Assembly (NCBI GenBank): GCA_032622095.1 | Contig: CP136069.1 | Span: 31,624,342-31,688,341, forward strand | DNA: 64,000 nucleotides | Origin: Siphonodentalium dalli | Taxonomy: Eukaryota > Mollusca > Scaphopoda > Gadilida > Siphonodentaliidae | Reading direction: 5' to 3' | Shown here: in pieces, positions 3,801 through 63,906 of the stretch | Layout of the letters: each line of letters opens with the position of its first letter | How positions within the stretch are numbered: the first letter of the stretch is position 1 | Position numbers and translations under genes: made by a program | Notes under the pieces: generated by a model | Database searches by the model: none | Told to the model about the DNA's origin: nothing | What the model saw: only the letters and a program-made list of their open reading frames with translations

Positions 3801-6800
3801 AATCATTTGAAGATTTATCTAGTATTCATGACATCGAGTTATTTGCAGAGTGAGGTTCCCAGAGGGTGAATGTAGTGATGCTATCCTGCAAATTCACCCT
3901 CTGGGGAACCTGATTCTGCATGACCTTGTCTGCTATGGGAGGCATAGACTCAGATTGAAGTTCTCAAATGGTGAATATTGTGATGTACACCCATTGGGAA
4001 CCTCGATTATGCAATGTGTCGTCTGCCAATTTGGGGATATAGAGAAACTAAACTAAAAAAAATAGAATCTTTGTGAAGAAGTTTCTATAAAATTTGATGA
4101 TAAAGAAATTTCCAGAGAAGATGAGGCCTAAGCAGAATGAGGTCCCCGGAATGTGAATTTAGTAATGCCAGCCCACTATGTGGGATAGCGTCACTAAATT
4201 CACCCTCTGGTGACCTCATTCTGCAAATGACTGACACACTAAACTCAGACTTGACTGACGTCAAAAGACACCTATCAAAATTATGTCTTTGGCCTTCGTT
4301 CAAGAATTTTTATTATTTTATCGACATTTTGATGTAATCCTATGCATGTATACAAATAATTAAACTTGTCTTCATTTTCAATTCAGTGCCAGTATGATCA
4401 TGAATGTCCATGTATCTCTAAATGGGGCCCTTTTTTTCTTCAGGGGAATGTTTCAGTGACTTCCAAGAGGGCAGAATCAAATTCAAGCCAACTTATAAAT
4501 TTGACTTCAATACAGATAAATATGATACATCTACTAAGAACAGAATACCTGCATATACGGTGAGTTCACATTATATTACACACCTGTGGTTGTATTCTCA
4601 GTATATAAGCTGGATCCTTATACGGTGAGTTCACATTATATTACACGTCTGTGGTTGTATTCTCAGCAAGGCTTGAAATAGTGTGTCTGTCATTTGCAGA
4701 ATGAGGTCCCCAGAGGGTGAATTTAGTGATGCTACCCTGCATAGCAGGCTAGCATCACCAAATTCACCCTCTGGGGACCTCATTCTGCAAATGACAGACA
4801 CCCTATTTCAAGGCTTGGCAATGTAAACAAAAGTTTTGGTCACAATTTATAAATCTTTTGACCAATGACTGGTCATAGTAGAAATGATTGATTAATGAAA
4901 TGAAATTCAATAACAGTTTAGTGAATATTGTTGGAATATCATGTAACATCCATGGTTATTACAGGAAATATAATAAACAGACTTTATTGGAGTCCGACTG
5001 GTAAGAGTGTGCTGTTTTGTGTAGTTTGTTATTTGCAGTGAAACAACAAATTCACCCTCTGGGGACCTCATTCTGCTTACACCTCAGCAGAATGAGGTTC
5101 CCAGAGGGTGAATTTGGTGATGCTAGCCCGCTATGCGGGGTAGCATCACTAAATTCACCCTTTGGGGACCTCATTCTGCAAATGACAGACACACTATTTC
5201 AAGGCTTGATTACACGTCTGTGGTTGTGTTCTCAGTATATATGCTGGATCCATTGAAGTTGGAATTTTTAGTCAAGTTTTTTCAAAAACTCAACTTATGC
5301 ATTGGCGAGGTCGGTAGGCGGGTTGGCATCTTGGCTTCCGGTCGGGTGCGATAACATTAGTGCAATAACTCAAACGTCAACCGATTTCATTCATATTTGG
5401 TATATGGGTCTGTTGCAACAATATCTTGAATGAGTTCGAAAACCAGGTTTGTCAAATCTTTTATAATAATAATTATATTTGTATAGTGCTTATCCCCAAT
5501 ATGAGAGTTATGGGACTTAATTTTTCTATTTTTAGCGATTTTTATGGTTTGCGACCATTAGCGCGATAACTCAAACAAACTTTGACAGATTTCAATGATA
5601 TTCGGTATATGAGTCTGGGATCACCTCTAGATGGGATCTTTTGAATTAAAACAATTTTCAATGAAAAACATGGCCGCTGGCTGTCATTTTGGATTTCACT
5701 CTTTGTATGACTACATCCTTTAGCACACCTTACAGGTCACATTACGTTTCCCAAAATTTGTGAAAAAAAACATGGCTGCTGATGCACACCCCTTGTTTTT
5801 TCTACAGTGGAATTTGGTATGTACAAATACAAAAGAAAATATAGGCAGAATATTAATAAATGTACACACTCTATTTACTCTAGCTTGCACATTCTACATA
5901 CAGGCACAGCAGCTTGCATTCAGAACTTACAAACAATGCAAAGAACTAGATCGGGACATGTCCTGACTTAGGCTTGTTCACACACTGGGGGAACCAGTCA
6001 GGCATATTTGCAGGAATTGACTTAAATGTCATCGATGTGCTAAATATGAAGTATAAACTATGTGTAGAATTTACAGTTACTAGTATATGTGGGCAATCCC
6101 CGAGGCCTGCACATCTATTTAGTACCATGGGAACCTGTGCACCTGCGATTATGAGGTCCGTTCGACTTTTTGTAGTGGAGCTCTACCTCTTTTTCGACTT
6201 AGAAGTTTTTGCAATATGCACGATTTTGTCCGAGCTTTTATTCCTACATTTTCCAGAAATTTTCTTTTAAACTTGGTACATATATTTAGTATCTTGGGAA
6301 CTTAGGCCAAACAAAAAAATGATATTTGATTCTCAGGCATTTTTTTTGGAAAATCAATGCGGAATTGAGGGTTTTATTTTTATTTTTTTCTGCCCACCGA
6401 CTGTTCGATATTTGAAACATAACTAATTTCCGTGTGAGAGCTCACTAAACTCAGGTTTGGTTTTAATGGATTCTAATAAACTGCACCATGAATGAAATTC
6501 CTTTCGGTATCAAGGTCTTTCCAACTTTAATGTATTTCAGGATAGAATACTCTTTAGATCAAAAACGAAGAATACAGTATCTTGCTTCCACTATGATGCT
6601 GTCATGTCTGTTAAAGTCTCAGACCATAAGCCAGTATACGCCATCTTCGAAACAGTCATCAAACCGTTAACGGGAGACAGGTAGGTTCCACTATGATGCT
6701 GTCATGTCTGTTAAAGTCTCAGACCATAAGCCGGTATACGCCATCTTCGAAACAGTCATCAAACCTTTAACGGGAGACAGGTAGGATTTGGTTTACTCTT

Positions 6801-9800
6801 TATTACTTGCGCCAGTCCATGCTGGACGCAAGTAATGTTTTCGGTGCGGATCTTTGTCTGTTGTCTGTCCTTCCGTGAATATCTTACGTCATACCGGAAG
6901 TACATACTGTAAAGAATGCACACGGAATAATATGAAATGGTTGCATCAATTGTAATTTAAATCAACATATATACTTAATTTGCATTGTTATCTGGTTTTA
7001 TTTTGGTTATAAATCGTTCATAAATGAACAATATTGAATGATTTCTTTCTGGAAACTGATCAAGACGCGATGACATCATGACGCACATCAGGACGTCACA
7101 AGCTACATGGGCGCGCAAAACACCAGACATGATCGCGTCGATGTCCAGACAGCTGAGACCCGTATTGCACGGGCAGGCTAAACCATTCTAACCGCCAACA
7201 ACTTCGTGTTCTATTATTATAAATATATATATACTGCATGAAAATAGTACTGCCCATTAGAAGACTATGTTATGTAACTTGAAACACGGGAAATGTGTTT
7301 AGATCATGTCTAAAAGATGCACGCGGAATAGTTTTTTTTTTCGCAGAGACAGTGAGGTGCGAACATATTTTTGGAAAGTTTCTTTGAAGTTCAAAACATT
7401 TTCGAAAGATCATGGTACATATAAATCATGTCCGGCCAAACAGTCGAGCGCGTGGTTCAATTGAGAAACAATTGCACTGAAAAATGTGAATGTTGAAACA
7501 TACGGATTATTAAATGCCTTATTAATTAACTGGGAAAACAACCTTTCTCATTTTCAACGCAATAGACATTTTGATGATATGTTCCCGAAGACTGTATAGA
7601 TCAGTCGCTATAAGGGCATGCTCACATTGACACACTGTTCGCGTGGTCGCGTGTCTTTTATTTATTTGTGTCGGTATTTGTAACTTACTTGTGCTATGAC
7701 ATACACGCTTGACATCATTCTAGTCAAACTAGTAATTTAACCCAATTGGTATATAATATATATTAGCATCATCGGCAATCAATCATCTTCACACCCTTCA
7801 TGTAAACGATGTCTCTATTGTTCTATAAATATGTCAAACAACTCCTACGTATCATTAGTGTAATAGATCAACTTGAAATAGTCTGTCCGTGTACACAAAT
7901 ATTTCAACAATGAATGAACTGAGATTTGATATCTAGATTTGTTTTTATCGATCTCTCAAACGAGGAGCCAACACCCGTGGTTCAAAGTGGTGTTGGTAAG
8001 ACAAAACAAAACATGTCAAATGTGTGATGTGCGCTAGTATAGGCAGCTCCAGTGAGTGCATTCTAGTTTACTAAATGGATTCTCCCAACCCAGTTATAAA
8101 ATTATATATTGGAATGGTCTATTATTCATTTGAAGGGGTTTTCAGGAAAAGTAAGCAGACAGATAATACAAGTGCAGAAGGAGTTCTATTTATTGGAGGT
8201 AAATGTTCAGATAATAAGTTCAACAAACCTTGAACTTATTATCTGAACATTTCCTAAGGGATAACTCCTACTCAAAGAGTATTTGGTTTAGTATAGAACT
8301 ATGTGCCAGTAAATCCAGCATAAGTCGGGGTTCCTTTGATGGTGCACATCTTTTTAGCTGTGATCAAATCTCTATCTGGCATAATATTGTGCAGGAAAAT
8401 ATACTATTAAAGCAATTATGGAAATTTCCTTCAAAATATCACTTCCTGGTTTTCACAATTCAACTACTTTTTATAGATTTAATTGAGTTTTTAGAAATAT
8501 TTTATTCTGTTCAAAAATACGTCACTTAATTCTGAGGTACAACTTATCTCCCTTTGAACGTCAACAGTAGTATAGTTCAGAAAAGATGTCTAGTTCACTA
8601 TAAATGCACAAATATGGTGCAGAATATTCGTAGAATGAGGTCCCAAGAGGGTGAATTTGGTGATGCTACAGTGCACAGTGGGCTAGCATCACCAAATTCA
8701 TCATCTGGGGACCTTATTCTGCATGGCCTCGAACACAGATCTAAGTTCCCAGATGGTGAAGATTGTGATGTGCACCCATTGGGCACCTCGATTATGCATT
8801 GCATATATCACCTACCAATTTGGGTTTATGGAGAAAAAAAAAGAAAGAAACTTTCTAAAGAAGTCAAACTTTCTAAAGAAACTAAATAAGATTGTTAATT
8901 TGATAATAAAGATATTAAGTAGAATGAGGTCCTCAGAGGGTGAATTTAGTGATGCTAGCCTCTGGGGAGCTAATTCTGCAAATATTCGGTACTATATTTT
9001 GAGACCTGGTTCCAAACCTGGCGTAAATTTGCATATAATCCAGATAAACCAGGGTATGGAATTTATTTTAAACTTGTATTTTCAGCTACAGACTGCCACT
9101 AGCTGCAGGCCATTTTGACAGATCAGTGTACATGGAAGGTAAGAGATTAAGATTACTTCTAGTAATGATGGATGGGGAGTAGACTTGAGGCATCAATGGA
9201 AAAAATTAACAGTGTGCATGAAGCCTGAGTTTAGTGTGCCTGTCATTTGCAGAATGAGTCTCCCAAAGGGTGAATTTAGTGATGCTATCCCGCACAGTGG
9301 GCTAGCATCACCAAATTCACCCTCTGGGGACCTCATTCTGCATGGCTTCATCTGCTATGGGAGAATAGACTCAGATTGAAGTTCCCAAATGGTGATGAAC
9401 ACCCATTGGAAACCTTGATGAGGCCACAATAAAAAAATTGATAGATTTCATCCACTTTTTTTTATAAGGTGGGGGGACCCTCTGAGGACCTCATTCAGTA
9501 TAAATAATAAGGCGGAATCGGGGGTCGAACTATCAATTGCTCAATGCATTGATGGAAACATCAGCATGTCCAATAAATTATTTGTATAATGATATTTGTT
9601 ATGGGGGAAACAGGAAGACAGCCCGGCAGGGCTATGTTCCCCCCCAGCAATATACTGAATTATTCTAGTTATATGTTTAAATTATTGTACTATTCATATG
9701 TATATTGTAAATAAAATTATCCTATCCTCTCCTATTAACCAATTTATCTGTCGCAATGTTACCCTGGAAAGATATGGGCATTACCTGTACCTCTCTCTGA

Positions 9801-11733: not shown

Positions 11734-11932
11734 TGATGAGCTGTGTGTGTGAAAAGCTGGGGCCACTTTCATTTGGACACAGCTACCCCTCAAAGATATG
11801 TCCTTTCATGATCAATACCCATTATTCATCGTGTGGTGCCTCAGTTCAGTCTAGATCAAGGACAATAGAGTGATGGCTCTACTTCAACCAGGCACATCCT
11901 GAATTCAACTATTATAGTTTAACCCTTTCAGT

Positions 11933-12369
11933 GCCAGGTCCGATTTTTGTATCAACCCATATACCCTGTGCCAATGCATTCTCTTATATATGCGAGTCGA
12001 CCATAGGTCGCCTCGCATATATAAGAGAATGCATTAGCCTAACAATTTTTCATTATTTGTTATTATTTTTTACAATTTTTTACAATTTTAATAATTTTTT
12101 CTTATATTCTTTAGCAGACATATTTTGTAGGTTTAGTGCCTGGGAATCTTACGTTTTTCATGGGCATCAAAATTATTACTATGAATACTTGGTGATAGTT
12201 TTGAGTTATAACACGTCCCTAAGGTTTTATCCAGTTTGTTTTTAAATTCGCTATAGCGTGCTTAAGCATACCCAATTTTTTTTGTTTTGTTTAATTTTTA
12301 ATTTTTTTAGGGCCGATTTTACAGACCGTAAATTAGGGCCGATGAGATCGGCCCCTGGCACTGAAAGGG
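11933..12369. mobile_element. Family C piggyBac-like MITE (CCCTTTCAGTG ends)
   Basis: TTAA-CCCTTTCAGTGCCAGGTC ... GGCACTGAAAGGG-TTAA. Contains the CCAATGCATTCTCTTATATA hairpin module. Close in its ends to 60820-61026 and 61343-61486, which use a different interior. Confidence 0.88.
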
Positions 12370-12605
12370 TTAAAAATGACTCTTTTTCACATTCAGTCAC
12401 ATAGTCTCGTTGTCGAAAATAGTATTGATTAACTGCTGCTTCAAGTCCCTGTTTGGTCACCGGTAAAAATATGGCACATTGTTAAAGACTTGGGACATGT
12501 ACCAGCATGGAGTAAAGAATAGGATCATGGTAGTCACTGTCTGACGTAGAAGCCTTCTAAAAGTGGGATGTATGTCGTAGCCTGAATTGATATTTTCTCT
12601 TATGT

Positions 12606-17230: not shown

Positions 17231-17560
17231 ATATTTTTAAAAATATAATATATATTTCCTTAAAGAAAGCCTGAACACTGAACTATCATAGGGCCCTCCC
17301 ATGGCGGTGCCATTCCCAACCCCGCAACTCGCCAATCTCCTGATTGAGTTGAAAATAAACTGGCGGATTCAGTCGGTTATATTGGGACTGCGCATGCGTG
17401 ACTAATCCGAGCAAGACCGCGAGGTACCATAGGCGACCACACACAAAAAGTTAACCCCTTTTCTACTATGGTTTTACAAACGCAGGACATCTATCCATAT
17501 AGTTCAGTGTTCAGACTTTCTTTAAGGAAATATATATTATATTTTTTTAAATATCATGAT
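17228..17560. mobile_element. ~330-bp MITE related to the large element
   Basis: Inverted ends of about 58 bp (ATATATTTCCTTAAAGAAAG... AACACTGAACTAT). Its interior TGCGCATGCGTGACTAATCC and CTATCCATATAGTTCAGTGT match the left subterminal part of the 4.6-kb element inverted. It abuts that element's right end. Confidence 0.75.
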
Positions 17561-17640
17561 AGGACTATAGCTGTTGAAAGTGACATCAAACCCCAATTAA
17601 CTAACTAATTACTGCTCGTTAAGTGATATCGATTGAATTG

Positions 17641-26136: not shown

Positions 26137-26390
26137 CAAGCCTTGAAATAGCGTGTCTGTCATTTGCAGAATGAGGTCCCCAGAGGGTGAATTTAGTGAT
26201 GCTACCCCGCATAGCGGGCTAGCATCACCAAATTCACCCTCTGGGGACCTCATTCTGCTTACAACTCAGCAGAATGAGGTTCCCAGAGGGTGCATTTGGT
26301 GATGCTAGCCCGCTATGCGGGGTAGCATATCTAAATTCACCCTCTGGGGACCTCATTCTGCAAATGACAGGCACACTATTTCAAGGCTTG
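26137..26390. mobile_element. Family B hAT-type MITE, complete
   Basis: CAAGCCTTGAAATAGCGTGT ... TTTCAAGGCTTG with perfect target duplication TGCTCAAA (26129-26136, 26391-26398). Confidence 0.93.
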
Positions 26391-31418: not shown

Positions 31419-31673
31419 CAAGCCTTGAAATAGCGTGTCTGTCATTTGCAGAATGAGGTCCCCAGAGGGTGAATTTAGTGATGCTACCCCCGCATAGCGG
31501 GCTAACATCACCAAATTCACCCTCTGGGAACCTCATTCTGCTTACACCTCAGCAGAATGAGGTTCCCAGAGGGTGAATTTGGTGATGCTAGCCCGCTATG
31601 CGGGGTAGCATCACTAAATTCACCCTATGGGGACCTCATTCTGCAAATGACAGACACACTATTTCAAGGCTTG
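31419..31673. mobile_element. Family B hAT-type MITE next to POLR1H exon 3
   Basis: CAAGCCTTGAAATAGCGTGT ... TTTCAAGGCTTG; target duplications TATGAACA / TATGTACA match 7 of 8. It ends 23 bases from the exon border. Confidence 0.9.
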
Positions 31674-49370: not shown

Positions 49371-52300
49371 CTGTCAATATTTGTTTAAAGAAAGCACATT
49401 TAATAGCAAACAAATACAAATGGACATGGATTTTGAATAAAAAACTAACTAAATAACAACAACATTCTATCCAGTCTATGTAAACATACACTCAGATTCA
49501 TAATGATACTGAGTCTATTGCATTCCCATCAACTTTTCATTTCTGAACAGTTGTGGGCTTCCCCCAAATTACATCACACCGCGCTAATTATAAATCGGAA
49601 ATTAGTTGTGATTGACAGGTGTAAACATGGTCACGTGCCAGTGCCGTCATGGCCGCTTCAACCCTGTGAAGCCGATTCTAAGAATCGGAATTAATAGTTG
49701 TAGGGTTTGTGACTTTTCGTTCGGCAGTTGTTTTACTGACAATAAAGGGAAACAGCTTCCGGGATCCAAAATAAAATGTACAATAACTAAGACAGATCTA
49801 CTTGAAATTATAAAAAATGTCAATTTATGTGGATTTCTTGGACTCAGAAGATCTCAGAACGAATTATTTTTAGATTGGCCAGGCGATTTGTCGCCCATGT
49901 TGTCAAAAAATAACACAAATCAACGGCCACGAATAAAAAATACATGAATGTCGGGACTATCTGATAAAACAACTACAGAACTAAAAAAAAGTACCTTGAC
50001 ATAAAAAAACGATCTATCAGTTCCCCAGTACCGTAGCACCACCGCAGCCAAAACGAGCGAAGAGCAACACAATTCTACCACCAACGCCACCGAAACCCAT
50101 CCGACATTACACAGCCGTATTATTAGCTCCAATGATTGTACCAGTTGTACCCAAATTACAGTTGCCTGCAATCCACATTCCGGTGATTCTTGATTTTAAA
50201 CTTTCGACCGCTCGTCAACAATCTATTTTATTTGTCGATTTGTGAATTTCTCTTCCGGTATAACATGACGTCATGTATACTATTTTTAACAACCTTTAGC
50301 CACACCTTCGGAATTTCAACACCAAGAGCACGTGACATGTTACTAGTTTTTTATTGGGGCACACATTTCTTGGAGCTAAGTTTTGATTGGCGGTAATTAC
50401 AAGGAATCCCGGGTTTGGGAAATGAAAACTGAACGAAAGGTCGTCAGACCCACTATTTTTTATATGTGGGTATGTAGTTTACTCCAGACTGCATTCTATC
50501 CTATTATTCATACGCCATCTTTGAAATCCATTTCCACTTTCACATTTAATGCAGCTTGTGATATTTCAGCAGGCTCCATGTTGGCCAAAGATTTTAATTT
50601 GCCAATTATTTTGCCATATGAAAATAATTTTTGTTAAATTTGTTTAGCAGTTGCCAAATGTTATCGTTTTCTGCAATATTGAGTATTATGTTTCAACCAT
50701 CACAGTTAAACCCTTTCATGACTGGAGATTCCTGAAAATTTGCTAAAACCCAGTGCCATTGCATTCTTTTATATATGGAGTCAACATAGGACACCTCGCA
50801 TATATAAGAGAATACATTGGCCTAACAATATCTACCTTGACCATGTAAGCCAGTGCATTCTCTTATATATGTGAGGCTTCCTATGGGAGACTCACATAAT
50901 TATATAAGAGAATGAACTGGCACAGGGTCTTTAATGCTACACCACAATAGCTCCCATCATGAAAGGGTTAACAACTTTTGTTATCTTCGTAAACATGATG
51001 ATTTTTCTTTTACTCAGGTATCGATGGATACAGTGACAGTGAAAAGCCTTGACATAGAGTGTCGGACATTTGCACATGCATCACCAAATTCACCCTCTGG
51101 GAACCTCATTCTGCTTAGGTCTCAACTGCTATGGGTCCTAGGATCACATTGAAGTTCCCCATTTGAATTTGATGATGTTCACCCATTAGTCACCTCATTA
51201 ATGCATTTTATCTTCTACAAATTAGGGGATATAGAAACTCAACAGAAGGGAAAAAGAAACTATAACAAAAAGACTATAGATACTTCCCAGAAGATGATGC
51301 CTAAGCATCAGTAAATTCATGGGGTAACATCACTAAATTCACCTTACAATATTTTAAGGCTTGGATAGTGATCTGGAAGCCGTCAATTATTAATAATTGT
51401 TTCTCGTTTATATCATAGAACAATAAACCAGTCATCGAACAATAAAATTGTATAAGGGCTGCTTCATAGAGAGCGCACCTGGAAACAAAGAGGACTAGCA
51501 ATGTAAACATCACCGCCATGCATAAACCTTCATCGGTCAATATGTGAAGTGTTTTGCCAAAACATTTGCCAAATGAAATATTTTTTGCTATAAATTGTAA
51601 ATTATTTTTGCATTTGGCAAGTGGCAGCGTAAACCCTGTGTTTCCACCTCAAATTTTACATAGTAATTTCTCACTTTTGTCACATTCTGATACTGATGTA
51701 ATAGTATAGTAGTATCCCTGCACATATGTCCAACAAAAATATCAAAACATATCTTCAATATAATAAAGCCGTATATATAGTTTAGTGTGCCTGTCATTTG
51801 CAGAATGAGGTCCCCAGAGGGTGAATTCAGAGATTCATATCGTATATCGGGCTAGCATCACTAAATTCATCCTCTGGGGACCTCATTCTGCTAAGGCCTC
51901 ATCTTCTCTGGAAAGTTTCTTTATTATCAAATTTCTATAGAAACTTCTTCACATATATTCTATTTTTTTTAAATTTAGTTTCTGTATATCCCAATTGGTG
52001 CACATCACGATATTCACCATACTGGAAACTTCAATCTGAGTCTATGTATGCCCCCATAGCAGATGAGGCCATGCAGATTGAGGTCCCCAGAGGGTGAATT
52101 TGGTGATGCTAGCCCACTATGTGGGATAGCGTCACTAAATTCACCCTCTGGGAACCTCATTCTGCAAATGAAAGGCACACTAAATGCAGGCTTGATTCTC
52201 ACCTTGTCTGCCATCATGATATCAGTGTCTTTGGTTCCAGCTTCCAGAGCAGATTTAATGTCTTTATCCATCCCCGGGACACTCATGTCGCCAAACACCT

Positions 52301-55300
52301 AACAAAGGAGAACATAACATATGACATATAGACACAACACTCATGTCACCAAACACCTACATTGTAGCAAAGGAGCATTAACATATAGCCGCAACACTCA
52401 TGTCACCAAACACCTACATTGTAATGCCCTAATTAATCGACTGCTTAACCACAGCAGAATTATCGGTAACTTTCAGGATTTAGTCGGAAATATGGCTTGT
52501 TGCCATTTATCGTAAAGCTCTCCCCGAGAGCTTTCCGATGAATGGCAACAAGCAAAGGAGAACATAACATATAGCCGGGACACTCATGTCACCAAACACC
52601 TACAGATACATTGTAGCAAATGAGAACATAACATATAGCCGCAACACTCATGTCGCCAAAAAAAACTAGCAAAGAAGAACATAACATGTAGCCAGTATAC
52701 TCATGTCGCCAAACACCTAGCACAGGAGAACATAACATATAGTCGGAACACTCATGTTGCCAAACACCTAGCAAAGTAGAACATAACATATAGTCGGAAC
52801 ACTCATGTTGCCAAACACCTAGCAAAGTAGAACATAACCGGGCCCATTGCCCCCATCTGCCCCCTGCACTGGCGCCCCTGCTCACCTGGCAGAATAAGAG
52901 ATTGCTCAGTGCCAAGTTCCGGCCATATTATGTCTGTTTCTATCATGCGTTAATTACGGCCATATTATGTCTGTTTCTATCACACGTTAATTCCGTGTAT
53001 ATTATGTCCATTTCTATCACTAGTTAATTCATGGCATATTATGTTCATTTCTATTATATGTTAATTCTGGGCATATTATGTCCGTTTCTGTCAAGCATTG
53101 CTGCCATAAAAATAGGGTCAGAGCAAAGAATCACATGACCTAATTTAAACCAACCAATATGCATTCAAGTTCCACATTGTGACCCACCATATCAAATCCA
53201 GTCGTACCATGTGCCAATGCATTCTCTTATATATGCGAGTCGACCATAGGTCGCCTCGCATATATAAGAGAATGCATTGGCCTAACAATTTGTTACAATT
53301 TTAATAATTTTTTCTTGTATTCTTTAACAATTTTATAATTTCACCCATACAGAGCCCCAGACAAACATGAGCAGACGACACTCTTCTATATGCTTCTATA
53401 TATGTGTGGGGCTCCCTGCAGGGTAATGGATGTTTTTTATTTTATGTCCTAAAAATTGTAAGAAACATTTATTTAAAAAAAAATGATAAAAAATTGTTAG
53501 GCCAATGCATTCTCTTATATATGCGAGGCACAGGGTAAAAAAATCCCGACTTACGACTGGATTTGATATGGCGGGTCACATATATGATTGTAAATATATC
53601 TCAATGATTGCCAAATCTGCCCCAGGCTCAGATGTTCAGATATATAGAATATGTAACTCGCTTATACTGCCATTGCTCAAGTCTGAGTTTAGTGTGCCTG
53701 TCATTTGCAGAATGAGGTCGCCAGAATGTGAATTTAGTGATGCTATCCCGCATAGCGGGCTAGCATCACCAAATTAACCCTCTGGCGACCTCATTCTGCT
53801 TAGACCTCATCTGTTATGGGAGACATAGACTCATATTAAAGTTCCCAAATGGTAAATATTGTGATGTACACCCATTGGGAACCTCGATTATGCATGTCAA
53901 CCGCCAATTTGGTGATATAGAGAAACTAAATAAAAAAAGAAATAGAATCTATATGAAGAAGTTTCTATAGAAATTTGATAATAAAGAAACTTTCCAGAGA
54001 AGATGAGGCCTTAGCAGAATGAGGTCCCCAGAGGGTGAATGTTGTGATGCTAGTTTGCTATAAGGGATAGTGTCACTAGATTCACCCTCTGGGGACCTCA
54101 TTCTGCAAATGACATGCACATTAAACTCAGGCTTGCCATCGCTTAAACTGATATGAGCATCTTTTGGGCGAGGCTCTGATGAGATGGGGGGGGGGGGAGA
54201 CCCCCCCCTGTCCCTGGAGCTTGTTTAGTATAGCTGACATACCTCTATGACAGCGCCATCTGGCAGCCTCAGGAAGTGTCGATAGAGTTCCCTTAGACCA
54301 TCGAGGTGCAGTGTGTGTATCGACACGTGGGTCGTTATTTCTTTCTCCTTTACAGCTTTTGTTGTTTCATTCCCATTTCCATCCGTAACAGTTTCTTCAC
54401 TCTGTAAGTTGATTGAATGGTTACTTCAGTAAAATAGTAACCCTTTCACGAATGGAGCTGCGCTGGTGCAGTATTAAAGATCATGTGCCAGCGAATTCTC
54501 CCATAGGTCTCATAGGGAGCCTCGCATATATAAGAGAATGCACTTGCTTACAAGGTCAAGGTAAATATTGTTAGGCCAACGTATTCTCTTAAATATGCGA
54601 GGTTCCCTATGGAGACTCGCATATGTAAGAGAATGCATTGGCACAGGGTTTTCGCAAAATTCCAGTCATGAAAGGGTTAAGGTGACACTGAGGTGACCAA
54701 GTTTTTCACCCTCCGAAAAATCTCAAGAGCGCAACTCTCCATCAATCAGAATACGTGTTTTAGTAATAATTATTCAACTTGAATTGCAATTGATGATAAA
54801 ACTTACATCTTCCTCCCAAATGTAATCGTAAATTGCTGCTTTACGCCGCTCTCCTTCTTCGCCCCGCCATTGCTCCGCCTTCCTGATGATGAAATTCAGC
54901 TCCTGATTGGACAGTTCAAGGTCATATGGTACAAAGAAGTCATCTTCCTCACCATGCAGTCTCCAGAAAACGTCCAGCATTCGACCGTTGTTGTGTAATC
55001 TGTTAAGGTAAGTCATATCTACAGTAATGCCGTAAATAATCGACTCCTTAACCACAGCAGAATTATGGGTAATTTTTCAAAATTCAGTCGGAAATATGGC
55101 TTGTTACCATTCATCAGAAAGCTCTCAGTGAGAGCTTTCCGATGAATGGCAACAAGCCATATTTCCGACTAAATCCTGAAAAATTACCCATAATTCTGCT
55201 GTGGTTAAGGTGTCGATTATTTAGGGCATTACTGTAAGTGCAGGAGATGACGAGATCAATACAGTCTAGGCAGATAGCTCAGAACAAATGTTGGCTGCAG

Positions 55301-58300
55301 TTCGTGCCAAATTATTTAGTCATGCAGAGAGTAGAATCAATGATGACTGCCGGAAGCCATGTTTTCTTTTATAAAAAATCATTAAAATTTTATAACTCCC
55401 ACCTAGAATTTTCAAAACATAATCTCCAATAAATGTGGGCTGCAGGGTGTGTCGTGAAATTCAAGATGATTTATAAAAAAACATGTGATGGCTCCCTCTG
55501 GTGGTCACCCTGAAGTACCATATGAAGTGTGGTGACGATCGGATGACGGATGTGGCGTGTACGGTGTGCAAAATGCCAGTCTCCAGAAGACGCTAATCTG
55601 TTAATGTATGTCATACCTAAGTTTCGGGTGTTTGCATCTTCACAGCACTACTATGAAACATGCAGGTGTTGTTTAAGAGTGAGTATCTATTTTTTCAATC
55701 CTAGTTTTTTTATATCGAGTACAGATCTGTCAGATCTGACCTCTGGAAGTACATAGACTATATATCTGTCAGATCTTACCTCAGAAAGTACAAAAAGTAC
55801 ATAGACTATATATCTGTCAGATCTTACCTCAGGAAGTACATAGAGTATATATCTGTCAGATCTTACCTCAGGAAGTACATATAGAGTACATATAGAGTAC
55901 ATATAGAGTACATATCTCAGGAAGTACATAGAGAACACATATGTCAGAGCTTACCTCAGGAAGTACATAAAGAGTATACACATCTGTCAAAGCTTCACTC
56001 AGGAAGTACATATAGAGTAAACATCTGTCACAGCTCAGCAAAGGTGGTACATATATAGTACAGATTACCCCAGGAAGTACATATAGAGTACATATCTGTC
56101 AGAGCTTACCTCAGAAAGTACACAGAGTACAGATCTTACCTCAGGAAGTACAAAATGTACATATCTGTCAGATATTAACTCAGGAAGTACATATAGAGTA
56201 CACATATGTCAGAGCTTACCTCAGGAAGCACATATGTCAGAGCTTACCTCAGGAAGTACATAAAGAGTACACATATGTCAGAGCTTACCTTAGGAAGTAC
56301 ATATAGACAGGAAGTACATATAGAGTACAGATCTGTTAGAGCTTACCTCGGGAAGTACATATAGAGTACAGAGCTTACCTCAGGAAGTACATATCTTACC
56401 TCATGAAGTACATATAGAGTACAGAGCTTACCTCAGGAAGTACATATAGAGTACAGAGCTTACCTCAGGAAGTACATAGAGTACATATCTTACCTCAGGA
56501 AGTACATATAGAGTACAGAGCTTACCTCAGGAAGTACATATAGAGTACAGATCCCGACATGAATGAAGTGAAGCAGTAGAGAAACAGGGTGATTAACAGT
56601 CCTCCGAGACCTGACCCCTGTGACCTCTCGAAGTGCCACCACAGTTTAGCACAGTCAGCGATGGCCTCTGTTCCTCCCTGATATATGTGACGCTGTCAAT
56701 CAAAATATTTATGGATAGAAACAGTTAAAGGTACTCAAACCGATTCGATGGTCCTCATATCATCTGATTCCAACAACAACAACATTTTTTGAAATGCAGC
56801 TTCAGTTATCAGAATCGAGTAGTTGCCCAAAAATAATGCTAACCACAGTCAACTGTAGTATAAAATTGCCCAAAACCTGTTATTTATCAACATTTTGTTC
56901 ATCAAAATACGCATTAGTTATCAGAATCGATTAATTGCAACAAAATAATGCTAACCACCGTCAACAATGGTATCAAATTTCGCAAATTGTTTTATTTATC
57001 AACATTTTGTTCAACGAAATATGGCCGTATTATCACTTGAGTATCACAAAATTTTGCCGTATTATCACTTGATTTAGAGTTATCAATCTTCATCCACAAT
57101 TTTGTCCGAGACTGTCCATTTGATGACGTTTTTCTGGGTCACAATTAATTTCACATCTCGAGAAATAACATATCTTCTAAAATTGATCACTTTGAGCTTT
57201 GATGTGTGGGTTCCTCGACTCAAATTGAATATTTTTTACCCCTGAAGCCAAAGAAATAGTAATTTAGAAGCGTTGATTCGGAAAATGCATCTTTTTCTTG
57301 TTTTCAATTGATAAAAAATGGCGGCTGTCAGCAAAGTGAAGGAAATTCAACTTTTATTTATCTGTCATATCAATAAATATTTAGTTGTTGGAATTTGACA
57401 TTATCACACAATTCGTACTTAATCAGATAGATTGATTTGCAATATTGCATTTATACCAATACCGAACTTATCGGCTGCAATCGTAAGCTCTCAATTATAA
57501 TATATTGCACCGTGTCAGTGGTTTAAAGCAGAAAACTGATCATGTCATTGCACAATCTCTACCAGAGCGGACCAGTCATACTTCCTTTCTGACTCTGTCA
57601 CCGGCTGGGTACTGGTCTATGTTTCCATATTTAAAACATGGGATTTTCCAGCAAAAATGGCGAAACCCGATCGCTCCAAAGTCAAATTTTCTATGTGCTT
57701 TTAGAACAATTCCCGCACTAAAACATAATGGCAGTCGGCAGAATGGAAAATCAGAGCGGCAGTTTTGTTGATGATTTTCGCAAGCTACTCATCAAAACTG
57801 CAGCAAATTAGAACTCTTGTGTTTTACTTGCCGTTCGAGTTGTGACAATGTCGTACACATGCGTTTAGACTTTTGTGTTGATAAAATAATCAGAGAACTG
57901 AATCACACTGTTTCGAAATATAGTTCTTCAGTTTAAGTGGGACTTTTCAAACTTAAGGGTCCAAATTTATCCAAATTTTGTTCAATATTTTGTGTGCTTA
58001 ACAAGAGCAGCATGTTGCTCTGTTCGCTTAGTATATATTTCAATATTGCAGAAGTCCACCAAATGTGGGTGAAATGTCGCCGGTAGCAGCGGTCTTACCA
58101 AGCCATCAAGGGAGGTAAACCATGCATGGAGTTTAGTCATTGCAATGGACCAATGAAACAGAACAACATAGTGTGGGCTGCAGGGTGTGCTGATGACAGG
58201 TTTGACATTATCACACAATCCATATCTTACAGATAGATTGATTTGCAATACCAAACTTATCGGCTGCAATCGGAAGCTCTGAGTTACAATACAATGCACC

Positions 58301-61300
58301 TGTGTCAATGGTTTAAAGCAGACATGTCATTGTAATGGAAACAGAAACAACGTAATGCAGTCATCTGAAGCAAGAAAAAAGACTTAATAAGTCTTTCCTT
58401 AACATTTGCTTAGTATTTGAGAACAAAAAGAAACAAGCCATATTTCCAACTAAATCCTGAAAAATTACTCATAATTCTGCTCTGGTTAAGGAGTCAATTA
58501 TTTAGGGCATTACTGTAATCCTCAGCATTTGCTTCTCATTTGAAGACTTAATTTCACGTTCCTTAACATTTGCTTAGCATTCAAATGCTTGCTTTTAGTA
58601 TTTTTTCTTGCTAAACATATGAATGTTAATAAATATTATTCTTTAATATTTTAATGCTATATAAAAGGATGATATTGTCATTTGATCTCATTGTTTTTAA
58701 ATTAGAACACAGTCATTTGTTACCGCATATATAATATGCACTTATCATGGTTGGTAGGAGTTATAGTTTTGAGGAAAGAAAATATAAATTTTCGCTATAT
58801 ATATCTTGAATATGTAAAAACCTATCTACAAGAGTAGGATATGTCTATCTGTCTGTTCAAGATTTTTCTCCCATACCAATTTTAATCAAATTTGGTGTGG
58901 TGAGACGCTGTACACTGGCAGATTTCATAAGGGCATTAGATTTTCAAAATTATGATTTGAAAACAAATCAATTTGAAAACAAATCAATTTGACACGTTCA
59001 CTGCCAACGCCCATTCAATTACATGCAAAAAGTGTGAGATAACTGTAATTAGTCGGCAGTGAACATGTTAGATTAAAAAAAAATCTGTTTTATTAAACTG
59101 AGCAAGGAGTTAAAGATAAAAAATAATATTGAAATGTTGAAATGATAAAAATGTGTGCAAAGCGCTGAATAAAGGCCTCATCTTCTCTGGAAAGTTTCAT
59201 TATTATCAGATTTCTGTAGAAACTTCTTCACATAGAGTCTATTTCTTTTTTAGTTTAGTTTCTCTATATCCCCAAATTGGCAGATGACACATTGCATAAT
59301 CGAGGTTCCCAATGGCTGTACATCACAATATTCACTTCAATCTCAGTCTATGTCTCCCATAGCAGATGAGGCCATGCAGAATGACGTCCCCAGAGGGTGA
59401 ATTTTGTGAAGCTAGCCTGCTATGTGGGATAGCCTCACTAAATTCACCATCTGGGGACCTCATTCTGGAAATGATAGGCAAACTAAACACAGGCTCGTTC
59501 TCCTCTTGTGAGATGTGAGAATTAGTTACACTCAGCTAGCACTTGTAAATAAAAATAATCCTCCTCATCTCACACGAGGACAAAAAACATACGCTACTCA
59601 GAACAGTTAAAGACATATTATGTGCTTGTTCGGGTGCATCAAACTGATAATTGTATTCAGGTGCTATGCCAACTGGAGGAATGTGGCATTATACTAACAT
59701 CACCGAAAATCTCAAGCAAATCGACCGTACCACTCCATAGAAAACATCGTCTGAACTATGCTAAATTGTAAATATTTACTACTCGAATCGGGACGCTGCT
59801 ATCGGCGATAAACTAAGGAAAACGATTTCGCCATCAGCAGTCACTGCATTTAATTAGTATATAAGAATGACGGTGTGTGTTGTCAATTTAGATATAATAT
59901 TTGTAAAAATAACTACTTTGAACAAGATTGTTCTCCATAAATTTCTATTTGATCACCCTACCGGAGTGTTTCACATCACTTTAACTATTGTCTTTATATT
60001 GAAATATCAAACTAATTGTCCATGTTATTGATTTCTGCCGAGTTAAAGGCCCACATAATTTTCAAATCCCCAGATAACATTATATAAGATATATGCCATA
60101 ATATATACCATTTGAAAGCGGAAGCTCCAAAAAATTGTATTTTCAACTTAATCGATGTAATAAATTGTGAACATGTTGTTTTTGGGGAGATATCGACATC
60201 TGTTATGTGCTAAAGTTTCTGCACAGTAGATTATTTTCAATTGAAGGGGAATAACTCTATATATTTAGATCTCGAGTTTTTCCCCTTCCATTGAAAATAA
60301 ACTACAGTTTAAATTCTGTTGCATTCTGGGAGCCATAACAGGGGAAATGATTTTATGATATCAGCTATTTTCTATTACTCTATAGGCACCTTCTTAGACA
60401 CAGACGTTTCAAATGGTGATGAATTATAGCATTTTAAAGACATATTATGTACTTGTTCAGGTGCGTGAAACTAATAAGTGGGTACTCATGTGCTATACCA
60501 ACTGTGGGAATGTAGCATTCTACTAACATCGCCGAAAATCTCAAGAAATCGACCATACCACTCCATAGATATTACCATCTGAACTATGCTTAATCGTAAA
60601 TATTTACATCTCGATTCGGGACGCAACAAACGACGATAAACTAATGCAAAATGATTTCACCATCGGGACTCATTGCATTGAATTAAAATATAAGAATGAC
60701 AATGTGTGTGCAGTAAATCACTTTAATAATATTTAATGGCATAGATTGTTTTTAAAACTGTATATCAAGGCCCTATAAAAAAAAAAAATCGGTGACGCGA
60801 AAATTAATTGGGCCTTTAACCCTTTCAGTGTCAAGTCCGATTTTTGTATCAACCCATATTTCCTTGATCATTTTTCAAATTTATTGATTATAATAATATG
60901 ATACATTGATGGAAAGAGCTCTTAGAGCTCTTTCAATCAATGTATCACATTATTGTAATCAATAAATTTGAAAAATGATCAAGGAAATATGGGTTGATAC
61001 AAAAATCAGACTTGGCACTGAAAGGGTTAAACGATAATTATATAACTAACCTGCAGCATCAGATCAATCACAGCTATTAAGTAGGGGTCAAAAAAGGTCA
61101 TGATGCCAAATGCCATGATGAACTTTGACCCCAAGTCAGGAAGGAATCCAAACAATCTTTGACAGATCCAAGAGAAGCAGATCAGCAGCGTAAAGACGAG
61201 AATATTCATGAGCGGACCTAACACTACCATGGCGATCTCCTCCCGGGTATGCAGCAACGTACCCTGGTAATTCAGGTTGACGGTGTACGGCAAGAAATCA

Positions 61301-63906
61301 AACCTGAAAACATCAAACAGCATATTAATATCCATCCCTTAATCCTTTCAGTGCCAAGTCCGATTTTTGTATCAACCCATATTTCCTTGATCATTTTTCA
61401 AATTTATTGATTATAATAATGTGATACATTGATGGAAAGAGCTCTTAGATGGATTGATACAAAAATCGGACTTGGCACTGAAAGGGTTAACTAACACTAT
61501 TTCTGATTGGGCATAAGCCGCCATGTGATAATCCGGGAAAAAGTAATATTGGTCATATTGGACTCCAAAGTGTGCAATATTACTTTTTTATTGGGACTCT
61601 GTGATGTCATAAATTAACTATTGCGAAATGAATCGGTGAAATTGTGATGCACGCACAACACTGGTGGATTTAGCAGACGTTTCACTTCCGCATTGAGTTT
61701 TTTTTTCATTTCCGTGTTTATTGTTCCAAATCATGCTTTCTGATGAGAATTAAGTGCTGACAAATACCAAAAGTAACCACTAGGTTTTATAATAATTTAT
61801 AAAATGAACAGGTATGGTGTAATATAACTGTCACAGTTGGACATTTGTTATTCATTGAAATCGATAAAAGAAGTATAATTGATTTTGATAATCGAATTCA
61901 AGCCTTGAAATAGGGTGTCTGTCATTTTCAGAATGAGGTCCCCAGAGGGTGAATTTAGTGATGCTACCCCGCTAGCATCACCAAATTCACCCTCTGGGAA
62001 CCTCATTCTGCTGAGATGTAAGCATCGAATTAGGATTTTCAGAGTTCAGAGAACATGGACATATTCAGAAAAGAAAATTTCTTGTTCACATTGTTTCCGT
62101 ACCATTCAATTTCATACCATTAAACCTCGAACAACAGAAACTTGTTGTTACCAACAAAAACTTACCCATGCCAACAAATGGCTCATTTTTACGGACCTAA
62201 ATCACTGTTACCCGCACATCTACCTCTGATAACGTGGCTTTATTATGATAGTTAAAGTATCCATTCTTGCTTTATTTTAGCACGTGCTAAAATAAAAGCC
62301 ATGGTTTAATTTGTAGCCTTTATCTACATAGTAGGTGATGGATATACTTACTTATTAACAGGGATTGTTACCGCCTGTAAGCATGATATACTTACTTATT
62401 AACAGGGATTGTTATCGCCTGTAAGTACAGCCACTGTGCCAGATAGTGGAGGTACGTTCTGATGAAGAAGACGACGATAAGCATCAACAACATGCCCCAA
62501 AACTCTCGACTTCTCCACTGCGACAGCCCCATCTCTGATAAAAACTGCCGACTTATGTATTTCAGCTTCTCATTTCCTTTTGATTCAGGTCTGCCCATTC
62601 CACTAAAGGGAGAGCTGTAAAAAAAAAATTCGGTGATGTAAAGTTTAAAAAAAATAATTGGCTTAGATTCTATTTCTTTTTTAGTTTAGTTTCTCTGTAT
62701 CCCCAAATTGGCAGATAACACATTGTATAATCGAGTTCCCAATGGGTGTACATCACAATATTCACCATTTGGGAACTTCAAACTGAGTCTATGTCTCCCA
62801 TAACAGATGAGGCCATTCAGAATGAGGTCCCAGAGGGTGAATTTGGTGATGTTAGCCTGCTGTGTGGGATAGCATCACTAAACTAACCCTCTGGGGACCT
62901 CATTCTACAAATGACAGGCACACTAAATTCAGACTTGACATGTATGTTTCCTATTTCATTACTATTACACCAATGGTAAATAATATCGGGATAAAATGAA
63001 GTAGATAGGACATATTAACACTGATTTGGACAAATATTATTCATGTAAAATTTTAACAAATGTCAGGGTGGTAGGGCTGTAACGATTCATCATGAATTCA
63101 AAGTATCACGATACACTTTAAAATGATACATGTATCTTATTGGTGTCTTGTGTATTATGATACAGGGAATCAAGTAATTTCTGAAGATGGGATTGTGTAA
63201 AAGAACAGAACCTGCAATGCTCTCTCAAGTTTACATGTCTATTACAGTAATGCCCTAAGTAATTGACTCCTTAACCACAGCAGAATTATGGGTAACTTTT
63301 CAGGATTTAGTCGGGAATATGGCTTGTTGCCATTCATCGGCAAGCTCTCGGGGAGAGCTTTCCGATGAATGGCAACACGCCATATTTCTGACTAAATCCT
63401 GAAAAGTTACCCATAATTCTACTGTGGTTAAGGAGTCAATTACTTAGGGCATTACTGTATGTGTATTTGATTCATCTAGCTATTAAACTGCATGATATCT
63501 TTGGTCCAGAATAACATGTAGCCTGGGTGTTGGAAATTCAGTTGGTAAATCATTTGAGAACACTAATTTACTAATTTAGTGTTTCGAGCTATGAATTGTA
63601 TCATTGATCATGTGTTGCGATTTGTATCTGAAGATGGGAATATACTTTTATAACTGAGTGTGAGAATGCATTTAGTATAGAGAGGGTTGAATTAAAACTT
63701 TGACTTGACATAGATTTTCTTACATAACTTAATTGACTAATAATCTAATAACAGAGTTGTCTGTACCTGACGGAGAATGTATGCTGCTCGAGTTGTTCGA
63801 GATGAGTAAGATTCCTGCGTTTCTTCCTCGGGTTTAGCATGTTAGTCTGTGGCATCATTGTGTACTTTCTCTTGTGGTAAACATCAGCTGCATTACTGAG
63901 ATATCT
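49260..63906 (-). CDS. Multi-pass membrane protein of unknown family, 3' eight coding exons (partial)
   Basis: Minus-strand exons 63906-63767, 62614-62396, 61303-61051, 56692-56526, 54999-54807, 54401-54243, 52298-52203 and 49370-49260 join in one frame, all with AG/GT borders, and end at TGA. Layout of the ~445 residues: a basic leader (NPRKKRR), a first hydrophobic span near FWGMLLMLIVVFF, two more within exon 3 (VVLGPLMNILVFTLLI and FIMAFGIMTFF), a fourth in exon 4 (LGGLLITLFLYCF), then a long charged, presumably cytosolic region rich in conserved-looking motifs (RLHNNGRMLDVFWRLHGEED, KAEQWRGEEGERRKAAIYDY, LHLDGLRELYRHFLRLP) and a Ser-rich tail. I do not recognise the family. Consistent phases and codon pattern make it a real gene; function is not assigned. 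Two of its exons have expanded into minisatellites at their borders. Confidence 0.85.
49612..50189 (+). pseudogene. Degraded open frame, unknown product
   Basis: One plus-strand frame stays open from ATG at 49612 to 49947 (111 residues, with CQCRHG, CRVC and LDWPGDLSP), then resumes in the same frame past a TGA and a TAA to 50189 (SEEQHNSTTNATETHPTLHS, CTSC). The steady frame over ~190 codons with two stops suggests a decayed gene or retroelement frame. I recognise no family. It lies in the large intron of the minus-strand gene. Confidence 0.3.
50711..50967. mobile_element. Family C piggyBac-like MITE (CCCTTTCATGA ends)
   Basis: TTAA-(A)CCCTTTCATGACTGGAG ... CCCATCATGAAAGGG-TTAA with hairpin arms. 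Confidence 0.87.
51043..51363. mobile_element. Family B hAT-type MITE, degraded
   Basis: AAAGCCTTGACATAGAGTGT ... TTTTAAGGCTTG; flanks GACAGTGA / GATAGTGA match 7 of 8. Confidence 0.8.
51782..52194. mobile_element. Family B MITE abutting a splice donor
   Basis: Long variant with both hairpins; right end CTAAATGCAGGCTTG stops at 52194. The next eight bases, 52195-52202, are the first eight bases of the intron on the minus strand (GTGAGAAT). The left terminus is truncated, so the matching target copy is not visible. Confidence 0.87.
52203..52298 (-). CDS. Membrane-protein gene, exon 7
   Basis: Acceptor TTTGTTAG and donor GACAAG/GTGAGA, phase 0 at both ends. Encodes VFGDMSVPGMDKDIKSALEA then GTKDTDIMMADK. 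Its 5' 20 bases with the acceptor recur about seven times upstream (52,299-52,845), and a hAT MITE abuts the donor on the other side. Confidence 0.85.
52299..52845 (-). repeat. Minisatellite of exon 5' ends with splice acceptors
   Basis: About seven further copies of the exon 7 start (minus strand TTTGCTAG/GTGTTTGGCGAC-ATGAGTGT) spaced about 52-60 bases: near 52349, 52410, 52598, 52657, 52709, 52761 and 52815. A family A palindrome fragment (52421-52552) has inserted in the array. One unit has lost the motif to an A-tract. Confidence 0.92.
52421..52552. mobile_element. Family A MITE fragment inside acceptor minisatellite
   Basis: GTAATGCCCTAATTAATCGA ... CTTTCCGATGAATGGCAACA; right arm missing. 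Confidence 0.85.
52918..53095. repeat. ~40-bp minisatellite, five copies
   Basis: Units of the form GGCATATTATGTCCATTTCT-ATCA..GTTAATTC repeated five times with some divergence, directly beyond the acceptor array. Origin unclear. Confidence 0.85.
53179..53579. mobile_element. Element L, second copy
   Basis: GTGACCCACCATATCAAATC ... GGATTTGATATGGCGGGTCAC. Interior nearly identical to 25470-25928 but lacking one hairpin arm. Confidence 0.82.
53678..54135. mobile_element. Family B hAT-type MITE, long variant
   Basis: CAAGTCTGAGTTTAGTGTGC ... CATTAAACTCAGGCTTG; flanks CCATTGCT / CCATCGCT match 7 of 8. In the intron after exon 6 of the membrane-protein gene. Confidence 0.9.
54243..54401 (-). CDS. 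Membrane-protein gene, exon 6
   Basis: Acceptor AACTTACAG and donor ATAGAG/GTATGT, phase 0 at both ends. Encodes an acidic/polar linker (SEETVTDGNGNETTKAVKEK) followed by ITTHVSIHTLHLDGLRELYR-HFLRLPDGAVIE, which looks structured and conserved. Confidence 0.85.
54441..54676. mobile_element. Family C piggyBac-like MITE (CCCTTTCACGA ends)
   Basis: CCCTTTCACGAATGGAGCTG ... CCAGTCATGAAAGGG-TTAA; left TTAA mutated to GTAA. It begins 40 bases upstream of exon 6's acceptor. Confidence 0.85.
54807..54999 (-). CDS. Membrane-protein gene, exon 5
   Basis: Acceptor CCTTAACAG and donor GAT/GTAAGT. Encodes LHNNGRMLDVFWRLHGEEDD, FFVPYDLELSNQELNFIIRK and AEQWRGEEGERRKAAIYDYI-WEED. The acceptor was chosen because the alternative TAG 19 bases upstream gives an in-frame stop. 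A family A palindrome ends 21 bases upstream, so the branch-point region is transposon-derived or nearly so. Confidence 0.85.
55022..55234. mobile_element. Family A palindromic MITE at the exon 5 acceptor
   Basis: CAGTAATGCCGTAAATAATC ... TATTTAGGGCATTACTG with TA flanks. Its left end lies 22 bases upstream (minus-strand sense) of the exon 5 acceptor. Confidence 0.92.
55235..55600. repeat. Family I dispersed repeat copy
   Basis: GTCATGCAGAGAGTAGAATC, GAAGCCATGTTTTCTTTTAT and CCATATGAAGTGTGGTGACG-ATCGGATGA match the tandem repeats near 42,110-42,550. Confidence 0.65.
55735..56525 (-). repeat. Minisatellite of exon 3' ends with splice donors
   Basis: About 25-40-bp units reading (minus strand) GTACTCTATATGTACTTCCT-GAG/GTAAGCTCTG. 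Each unit equals the last ~25 bases of exon 4 plus its donor. I count 15 units with an intact CTTACCT(N)AG complement besides the real one, and several degenerate units. The array begins exactly at the exon border and runs into the intron. Confidence 0.95.
56526..56692 (-). CDS. Membrane-protein gene, exon 4 (fourth TM span)
   Basis: Acceptor GATTGACAG and donor CTGAG/GTAAGC. Encodes RHIYQGGTEAIADCAKLWWH, FERSQGSGLG and the span LLITLFLYCFTSFMSG ending SVLYMYFLR. The final ~25 bases plus donor are the founder unit of the repeat array that fills the next ~800 bases of intron. Confidence 0.85.
56729..57292. mobile_element. Family G TTAA-flanked element
   Basis: TTAA-AGGTACTCAAACCGATTC ... GATTCGGAAAATGCATC. 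Includes an internal duplication of the AGTTATCAGAATCGA.TA.TTG segment. It starts 37 bases from the exon 4 acceptor. Confidence 0.78.
57296..58325. repeat. Dispersed families M and J
   Basis: 57,296-57,535 and 58,195-58,325 are family M (TTGATTTGCAATA, TTATCGGCTGCAATCG). 57,555-58,120 is an inverted full copy of family J. Open frames here belong to the repeats. Confidence 0.75.
58434..58515. mobile_element. Family A half element
   Basis: Only the right arm, CAAGCCATATTTCCAACTAA ... TTTAGGGCATTACTG, inside a repeat with CCTTAACATTTGCTTAG at both sides. Confidence 0.8.
58984..59072. repeat. Short inverted repeat (GTTCACTGCC ends)
   Basis: ACACGTTCACTGCCAAC and its mirror GTCGGCAGTGAACATGTT enclose ~55 bases. 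Confidence 0.65.
59172..59497. mobile_element. Family B MITE, left-truncated
   Basis: GGCCTCATCTTCTCTGGAAA middle then hairpin and AACTAAACACAGGCTCG end. Confidence 0.85.
59611..59980. mobile_element. Family K TTAA-flanked element
   Basis: TTAA-AGACATATTATGTGCTTG ... GTGTTTCACATCACT-TTAA, 370 bp. Confidence 0.87.
60047..60815. mobile_element. Family F element with nested family K copy
   Basis: TTAA-AGGCCCACATAATTTTC ... AAAATTAATTGGGCCT-TTAA. Family K (60438-60722) has entered one of its TTAA sites. Confidence 0.85.
60438..60722. mobile_element. Family K element nested at TTAA
   Basis: TTAA-AGACATATTATGTACTTG ... GCAGTAAATCACT-TTAA (60434-60437, 60723-60726). Confidence 0.85.
60820..61026. 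mobile_element. Family C-type piggyBac-like MITE, near-perfect palindrome
   Basis: TTAA-CCCTTTCAGTGTCAAGTC ... CTTGGCACTGAAAGGG-TTAA. The two ~100-base arms are almost exact inverses around AGCTCTTAGAGCT. Ends 24 bases from the exon 3 donor of the membrane-protein gene. Confidence 0.9.
61051..61303 (-). CDS. Membrane-protein gene, exon 3 (two TM spans)
   Basis: Acceptor GTTTTCAG and donor CTGCAG/GTTAGT. Encodes FDFLPYTVNLNYQGTLLHTR, then two hydrophobic spans separated by QRLFGFLPDLGSK, ending PYLIAVIDLMLQ. It lies between two TTAA-flanked hairpin elements, one 21 bases from its donor and one about 36 bases from its acceptor. Confidence 0.85.
61343..61486. mobile_element. Family C-type MITE, one arm deleted
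   Basis: TTAA-TCCTTTCAGTGCCAAGTC ... ACTTGGCACTGAAAGGG-TTAA. Same family as 60820-61026, on the other side of exon 3. Confidence 0.87.
61487..61898. other. Intron, no gene seen
   Basis: An inverted pair around AAAAAGTAATATTGG / GCAATATTACTTTTT (61,538-61,590). Nothing else assignable. Confidence 0.45.
61899..62023. mobile_element. Family B one-ended copy with intact target duplication
   Basis: CAAGCCTTGAAATAGGGTGT at left, then one hairpin, ending CTGCTGAGATGTAAGC without the normal right end. Still flanked by perfect 8-bp ATCGAATT (61891-61898, 62024-62031). Confidence 0.85.
62352..62439 (-). repeat. 44-bp tandem duplication of membrane-protein exon 2 3' end and donor
   Basis: On the minus strand TTACAGGCGATAACAATCCC...AATAAGTAAGTATATC occurs twice in a row, spaced 44 bases. 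The copies differ by a few bases. Copy 1 holds the used donor (62396/62395) and copy 2 a second identical donor (62352/62351). Confidence 0.92.
62396..62614 (-). CDS. Membrane-protein gene, exon 2 (first TM span)
   Basis: Poly-T tract and TTTACAG acceptor; donor AATAA/GTAAGT. Encodes SPFSGMGRPESKGNEKLKYI, a linker, then EFWGMLLMLIVVFFIRTYLH as the first membrane span. Read-through of the donor gives an immediate TAA. The last 26 or so exon bases with the donor are copied once in tandem (62352-62395). Confidence 0.85.
62662..62937. mobile_element. Family B MITE, left-truncated
   Basis: Middle segment CCCCAAATTGGCAGATAACA, hairpin, and end CACTAAATTCAGACTTG. Confidence 0.85.
62938..63244. other. 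Intron, no gene seen
   Basis: A TAGGGCTGTAACGATTCATC stretch at 63,071 resembles a hAT end (compare TAGGGCTGGACG), but no partner end is seen. Confidence 0.4.
63245..63457. mobile_element. Family A palindromic MITE, complete
   Basis: CAGTAATGCCCTAAGTAATT ... ACTTAGGGCATTACTG, TA-flanked. Confidence 0.92.
63767..63906 (-). CDS. Membrane-protein gene, window exon 1 (basic leader)
   Basis: Acceptor TTTATTGCAG and donor GTCAG/GTACAG. Encodes RYLSNAADVYHKRKYTMMPQ then TNMLNPRKKRRNLTHLEQLE and QHTFSVR. It contains Met codons but has a good acceptor, so the true start is probably in an exon right of the window. Confidence 0.75.

Follow-up and report, generated by a model that had tools for sequence, protein, structure and literature searches.

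The analysed sequence (hereafter the window) is a 64,000-nucleotide stretch of the Siphonodentalium dalli genome, contig C9 positions 31624342-31688341 of an assembly of 2.23 Gb in 9 contigs of 190-301 Mb. It carries an INPP5E-like gene and a second gene, here termed the membrane gene, and five exons of these two genes are bordered by tandem arrays whose repeat unit straddles the junction between exon and intron. Ten coding exons were confirmed in the window. Exons b, c and d of the first gene are INPP5E-like by homology (E=6e-31 to 2xsw), whereas searches of Pfam and PDB with the membrane gene yielded no match. The membrane gene, on the minus strand (52203-63906), consists of 7 exons that share a single frame throughout and are bounded by proper splice sites. 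An initial annotation of this DNA had counted 17 coding exons and listed five duplications at exon borders, four at donors and one at an acceptor, and all five are present at the places it named when the sequence is read directly and run through Tandem Repeats Finder (TRF). Four of the five are among the 54 rows that TRF returns for the window; the 65-bp unit at exon c is absent from these rows and is evident by sequence reading.

Two of the donor arrays lie in the INPP5E-like gene, on the plus strand. At exon c (4444-4559; homology to 2xsw, with splice sites read in the sequence), a 65-bp unit comprising 6 nt of exon and 59 nt of intron forms an array at 4554-4666, of which copy 1 occupies 4554-4618 and copy 2 is truncated at 4666 by foldback elements resembling miniature inverted-repeat transposable elements (MITEs). 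These elements, identified by sequence reading and belonging to a family found genome-wide, fill 4667-5208 inside copy 2, and a third partial copy of intron-side sequence runs from 5209 on. At exon d (6541-6680; homology to 2xsw and sequence reading), a 100-bp unit with 95 nt of exon and 5 nt of intron is present twice (6586-6785), the copies showing 98% matches.

The remaining three arrays are in the membrane gene on the minus strand, where exons 2 (62396-62614), 4 (56526-56692) and 7 (52203-52298) are each supported by the open frame that runs across exons. The exon 2 donor array (62341-62425) holds 1.9 copies of a 44-bp unit with 30 nt of exon and 14 nt of intron. The exon 4 donor is multiplied into a minisatellite (55725-56551) of approximately 25 copies of a 32-bp unit made of the last 26 nt of the exon and 6 nt of intron; elsewhere in the genome, a search that skips simple repeats gave one weak match to it (72%, C4). 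The exon 7 array, with units of 51-57 bp containing the acceptor and the start of the exon, is split into a proximal part (52279-52423) and a distal part past a foldback insertion (52614-52838), both delimited by TRF and sequence reading. The exon-intron junction lies inside the unit at all four window donors.

The foldback element is itself a palindrome of about 92 bp, often paired at 103-bp spacing, and in the window it occurs at 450-644, 4667-5208, 26166-26361 and 31448-31644. It is very common genome-wide, with 172 matches from the best 40 of 2894 candidates. The cluster within the exon c array sits between the two copies of a 27-bp direct repeat, which differ by 1 mismatch (4640-4666 and 5209-5235).

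The frequency of such arrays away from the window was assessed with 194 exons of conserved gene families from the same genome, found exon by exon (loci are given L numbers below). They comprise an exploratory set of 60 kinesin exons, a second set of 35 HECT, 23 myosin and 42 further kinesin exons, and 35 exons of voltage-gated channels; L128 was dropped for its overlap with L049, which leaves 194 loci. For the second set, the rules and the list were fixed before sequences were fetched, and the channel exons were chosen before their sequence was seen. Kinesin searches gave 123 matches, of which 111 were listed after setting aside 11 in recent gene copies and 1 neighbouring match, and 102 were fetched. 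Matches to UCH lie outside the sample. Ligand-gated channels were considered and found unsuited, being mostly single open frames, and voltage-gated channels were taken instead. These ligand-gated channel genes show a very large expansion over many contigs, mostly as single open frames of approximately 350-500 aa among the best 150 of 822 candidates.

A repeat finder set beforehand, used with control points 250 and 350 nt away, later gave way to TRF, with random intron points as controls. This change came after 160 loci had been seen, and TRF was chosen because it allows gaps. It was run at score 100 with a period of at least 20, and also at thresholds of 60 and 150. A donor was counted as spanned when the first unit of an array crosses it, with 15% slack in unit length. 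Exon edges come from our own scoring with splice-site weights rather than from annotation. The TRF count omits three donors that lacked a predicted site (156 of 159 remain), and the permutation count takes the end of the match for such donors.

By the first-unit rule, 17 of 194 donors are spanned, compared with a mean of 3.47 and a maximum of 12 for random intron points in 5000 permutations. The TRF count at score 100 gives 16 of 156 donors where 2.2 are expected (from 37 intron arrays with units totalling 2406 bp in 172,866 bp), and scores of 60 and 150 agree. Spanned donors number 6/60 in the exploratory set, 10/99 in the second set (p=1e-5) and 1/35 among the channels; exons chosen unseen contribute 11/134 against 2.4 expected, the repeat finder having been changed after the first look. 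Thus, about 1 in 11 of the sampled exons has its own end and the start of its intron as a tandem repeat. By eye, the spanned donors are those of kinesin loci L010, L030, L033, L049, L051, L057, L119, L123, L130, L135 and L145, HECT loci L075, L081, L093 and L095, myosin locus L101 and channel locus L193. Their units measure 28-95 bp in 2 to more than 18 copies, and by position the 17 arrays fall in approximately 15 genes.

Acceptors are spanned at 4 of 194 loci under the mirrored rule, with 3.95 expected, and at 3 of 157 by TRF at score 100, with 2.2 expected. Inspection gives 5 of 194 (L093, L138, L139, L149 and L185, of which L139 qualifies solely through the offset detector). The difference between donors and acceptors has p=0.002 by TRF and p=0.008 by inspection. 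Overlap with splice sites above chance, which the initial annotation had anticipated, is borne out at the donors of exons outside the window. Its proposal that exon edges in general are favoured survives in part: the bias extends beyond the window but chiefly concerns donors, and acceptors are near background. Arrays that end at most 30 nt upstream of an acceptor, with the exon not entered, occur at L134, L049, L186 and L075.

The position of the duplicated segment relative to the donor was also examined. Coverage by first units rises through the end of the exon to a peak at the donor (8.7% at -3..+6), then falls to 5.7% at +6..+20, 2.2% at +20..+40 and 1.2% at +40..+80. Where units exceed 35 bp, TRF places at most 30 nt of intron in the unit in 11 of 11 sample arrays (p=4e-4 vs uniform), and in 13 of 14 when the window is included, exon c with its 59 nt being the exception. 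With gaps allowed, the duplicated segment ends mostly 5-30 nt past the donor, a regularity that is open to some doubt. If selection acted on splicing context, long intron parts would be expected, opposite to what is observed.

In each array, the frame runs on intact to the exon-proximal donor, and the copies lie on the intron side. If the second donor were used, the frame would be shifted or interrupted in all but 2 of 21 arrays (19 affected), the exceptions being L049 and L145; in the membrane gene, neither donor unit (44 and 32 bp) has a length divisible by 3. Across the intronic copies of six arrays, mismatches occur at 73/853 donor positions and at 180/2394 positions in the rest of the unit (p=0.33). 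The consensus of one of these arrays, L095, was entered without GT, nearly all of its copies having lost that dinucleotide; excluding it gives 48/718 and 133/1991 (counted by hand). Because donor positions are unconserved and the frame is broken in most cases, the extra donors look neutral. The suggestion that the duplications are kept or expanded by selection finds no support, since mutations are as frequent at intronic donor positions as elsewhere in the unit.

Of 4 comparisons between recent paralogues, 3 reveal a difference in copy number. The donor array of L075 has 4.2 copies compared with 2.2 in L165, the acceptor array of L093 has 3.8 compared with approximately 2 in L164, and L049 and its two paralogues have 14.5, 14.5 and 11.5. 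In the fourth comparison, an old duplication is common to L101 and L161, with the same two copies in both. A long satellite of 26-bp units, many of which carry the donor consensus CAGGTAAGT, was also noted at C1 231.98-232.01 Mb, and it is possibly an array of this kind that has run away.

Arrays of this structure are known from amphioxus, where mirage minisatellites were reported for Adh3, the globins BflGb6 and BflGb9, PGBD5 and troponin C, and where their origin was called unclear (PMC3902484, as far as its available text goes). The likeness lies in a unit that spans the exon-intron boundary (all five window arrays, and 17 donor plus 5 acceptor cases among the 194 exons), in an authentic exon and splice site that stay intact with the copies on the intron side, and in unstable length. 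As read in the sequence, the window arrays agree with mirages in the features that could be tested. The available parts of the amphioxus report treat its cases one by one, at both boundaries and without a rate or background, whereas the present arrays come from a 194-exon sample of a 2.2-Gb genome and are biased to donors. Thus, the structure was already known, and what is new is how often it occurs relative to background, its preference for donors and the position of the breakpoint.

Human genes in segmental duplications also contain internal tandem repeats at exon-intron boundaries (PMC2812944, in the portions available). These are similar in having minisatellite units of approximately 30 bp, some at such boundaries, that vary between paralogues. 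They differ in having been ascertained in recent paralogues, where novel introns and changes to transcripts were seen, and a donor bias is not described in the same portions of that report. A further relative is the gain of introns through tandem duplication of AGGT-containing exon sequence, as in the Rogers model (cited in PMC3087553) and the potato RNA-dependent RNA polymerase gene (PMC4974935), both sources being available in part. There too, tandem duplication makes extra splice signals in coding genes. In contrast to that model, the multiplied donor here is one that already exists, with its copies still inside the old intron; in genomic sequence, no new intron between duplicated sites was found among the arrays read. 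Our literature search, whose coverage leaves out many subscription papers, returned no genome-scale rate or donor bias for such arrays, and the available parts of PMC7931591, PMC3296678 and PMC4039745 contain nothing on arrays at exon-intron borders.

We propose, with about even confidence, that these are mirage-type minisatellites arising at a mutational hot spot for duplication that is linked with functional 5' splice sites, and then subject to minisatellite turnover. A short DNA segment astride a working 5' splice site would be duplicated in tandem, such that the copies land on the intron side and the exon-proximal copy leaves the exon and its donor intact. Within genes that are transcribed, DNA immediately downstream of the donor may break or stall a polymerase more often than DNA elsewhere, with an R-loop, a paused polymerase or a spliceosome-associated event as candidate triggers; repair, or a back-jump of the polymerase, would then duplicate the upstream stretch. 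The break or stall step is suggested by breakpoint position and donor bias, and on this proposal the excess would be mutational in origin. Unequal exchange could subsequently expand the array, with growth and shrinkage as in any minisatellite, a step that is supported by the paralogue comparison. More tentatively, functional 5' splice sites may be germline hot spots of tandem duplication, with about 1 in 11 donors carrying an array, and the arrays may represent a genome-scale indel signature of the splicing machinery. The initial annotation had offered a local mechanism near splice sites in two forms. The best fit is a process that makes DNA near the 5' splice site prone to duplication; capture of spliced RNA ends finds no support, given the unspliced exon-intron junction contained in every donor unit examined.

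Several observations weigh against a hot spot at the donor. A harsher expectation from array coverage is 5.5 donors (p=1.4e-4), and the enrichment is therefore approximately 3- to 7-fold. The detector set beforehand finds 7/100 donors in the second set (5 tagged, plus L075 and L119 by inspection), and the switch to TRF added L081, L093 and L095, which were afterwards verified by eye. Channel exons alone show no excess (1/35), and the arrays at L134, L049 and L186 abut acceptors without spanning them. The background itself is uneven, first-unit coverage recovering to 3.5% at +80..+150. Of 10 units above 35 bp, just 6 have an intron part of at most 30 nt when the match is required to be ungapped; those over this limit are L033 (32), L093 (34), L119 (51) and L135 (51). 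The TRF measure is preferred because one-base or small differences in L119, L135 and L093 halt the ungapped match. Finally, selection on copy 1 prolongs similarity on the exon side and can thereby bias the sample towards exon-rich units.

The main rival, in our estimate rather unlikely, holds that exon sequence in general duplicates often, for reasons of chromatin, base composition or germline transcription, and that duplications inside exons are purged, those across acceptors are less tolerated and only those crossing the donor survive. No array lies wholly within an exon at 159 loci, the ungapped intron parts are nearer to an even spread, and there is a hint of a gene-class effect (kinesin and HECT 15/136 vs myosin and channel 2/58, p=0.10), all as such a process would have it. 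However, it expects units to be distributed evenly about the donor, whereas the TRF intron parts are limited to 5-30 nt, coverage is down to 1-2% by +20..+80, and acceptors have little excess. Neutral survivorship alone, with duplication occurring evenly and arrays wholly inside exons being removed, is improbable: it correctly predicts that arrays are confined to edges and that exon-proximal copies are intact, but it also predicts that donors are spanned at no more than the intron rate, which is contrary to the count of 17 vs 3.5.

We consider it similarly improbable that the donor motif acts simply as DNA, as a target of cutting or slippage to which splicing is irrelevant. Donor-like sites of score >=3 are present in 7/40 background units in sense and 4/40 in antisense, compared with approximately 6% of random segments. 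Moreover, intron sites of score >=3 are spanned in 7/162 sense and 2/169 antisense cases, and those of score >=2 in 14/355 and 5/371, which counts against the hot-spot proposal; real donors of score >=3 are spanned in 9/101 cases. Judging from the score-3 counts, the sequence itself may thus have a weak effect. At score >=4, in contrast, intron sites are spanned in only 3/149 cases (2/68 sense, 1/81 antisense) vs 7/72 for real donors (p=0.015), and such sites occur in just 2/40 background units on each strand. A genome-wide count of CAGGTAAGT pairs spaced 21-51 (1943 vs 666 for the reversed motif) was left unused, these pairs lying within long arrays and not representing events. Retention of extra donors by selection as spare splice sites would account for the multiplied sites being donors and not acceptors, but it is made very unlikely by the unconserved donor positions of the intronic copies and by the frame that a second donor would break or shift. 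Tandem repeats are prone to assembly error, and yet an assembly or chance artefact is the least credible reading of all: an assembler is blind to splice sites, the copies have diverged, and the same 67-bp duplication is present in two gene copies.

The searches that supplied the sample yielded two other observations. A HECT-domain fragment covering 232-285 recurs as 101-aa frames on 7 contigs, with a constant range and frame length (compared by match range and frame length, not by sequence), as if borne by a mobile element. At C4 274.2-275.5 Mb, similar myosin-head matches are clustered on both strands and are probably recent gene copies. A separate search for molluscan haemocyanin gave no signal, an outcome that carries no information.

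Mirages, so far a curiosity of a few amphioxus genes with no known cause, offer material from which new introns could arise and can mislead gene annotation. Should approximately 9% of donors bear them in a further genome, and should the duplication tend to end just past the donor, the origin of mirages becomes testable by counting and would point to mutation tied to transcription or splicing.
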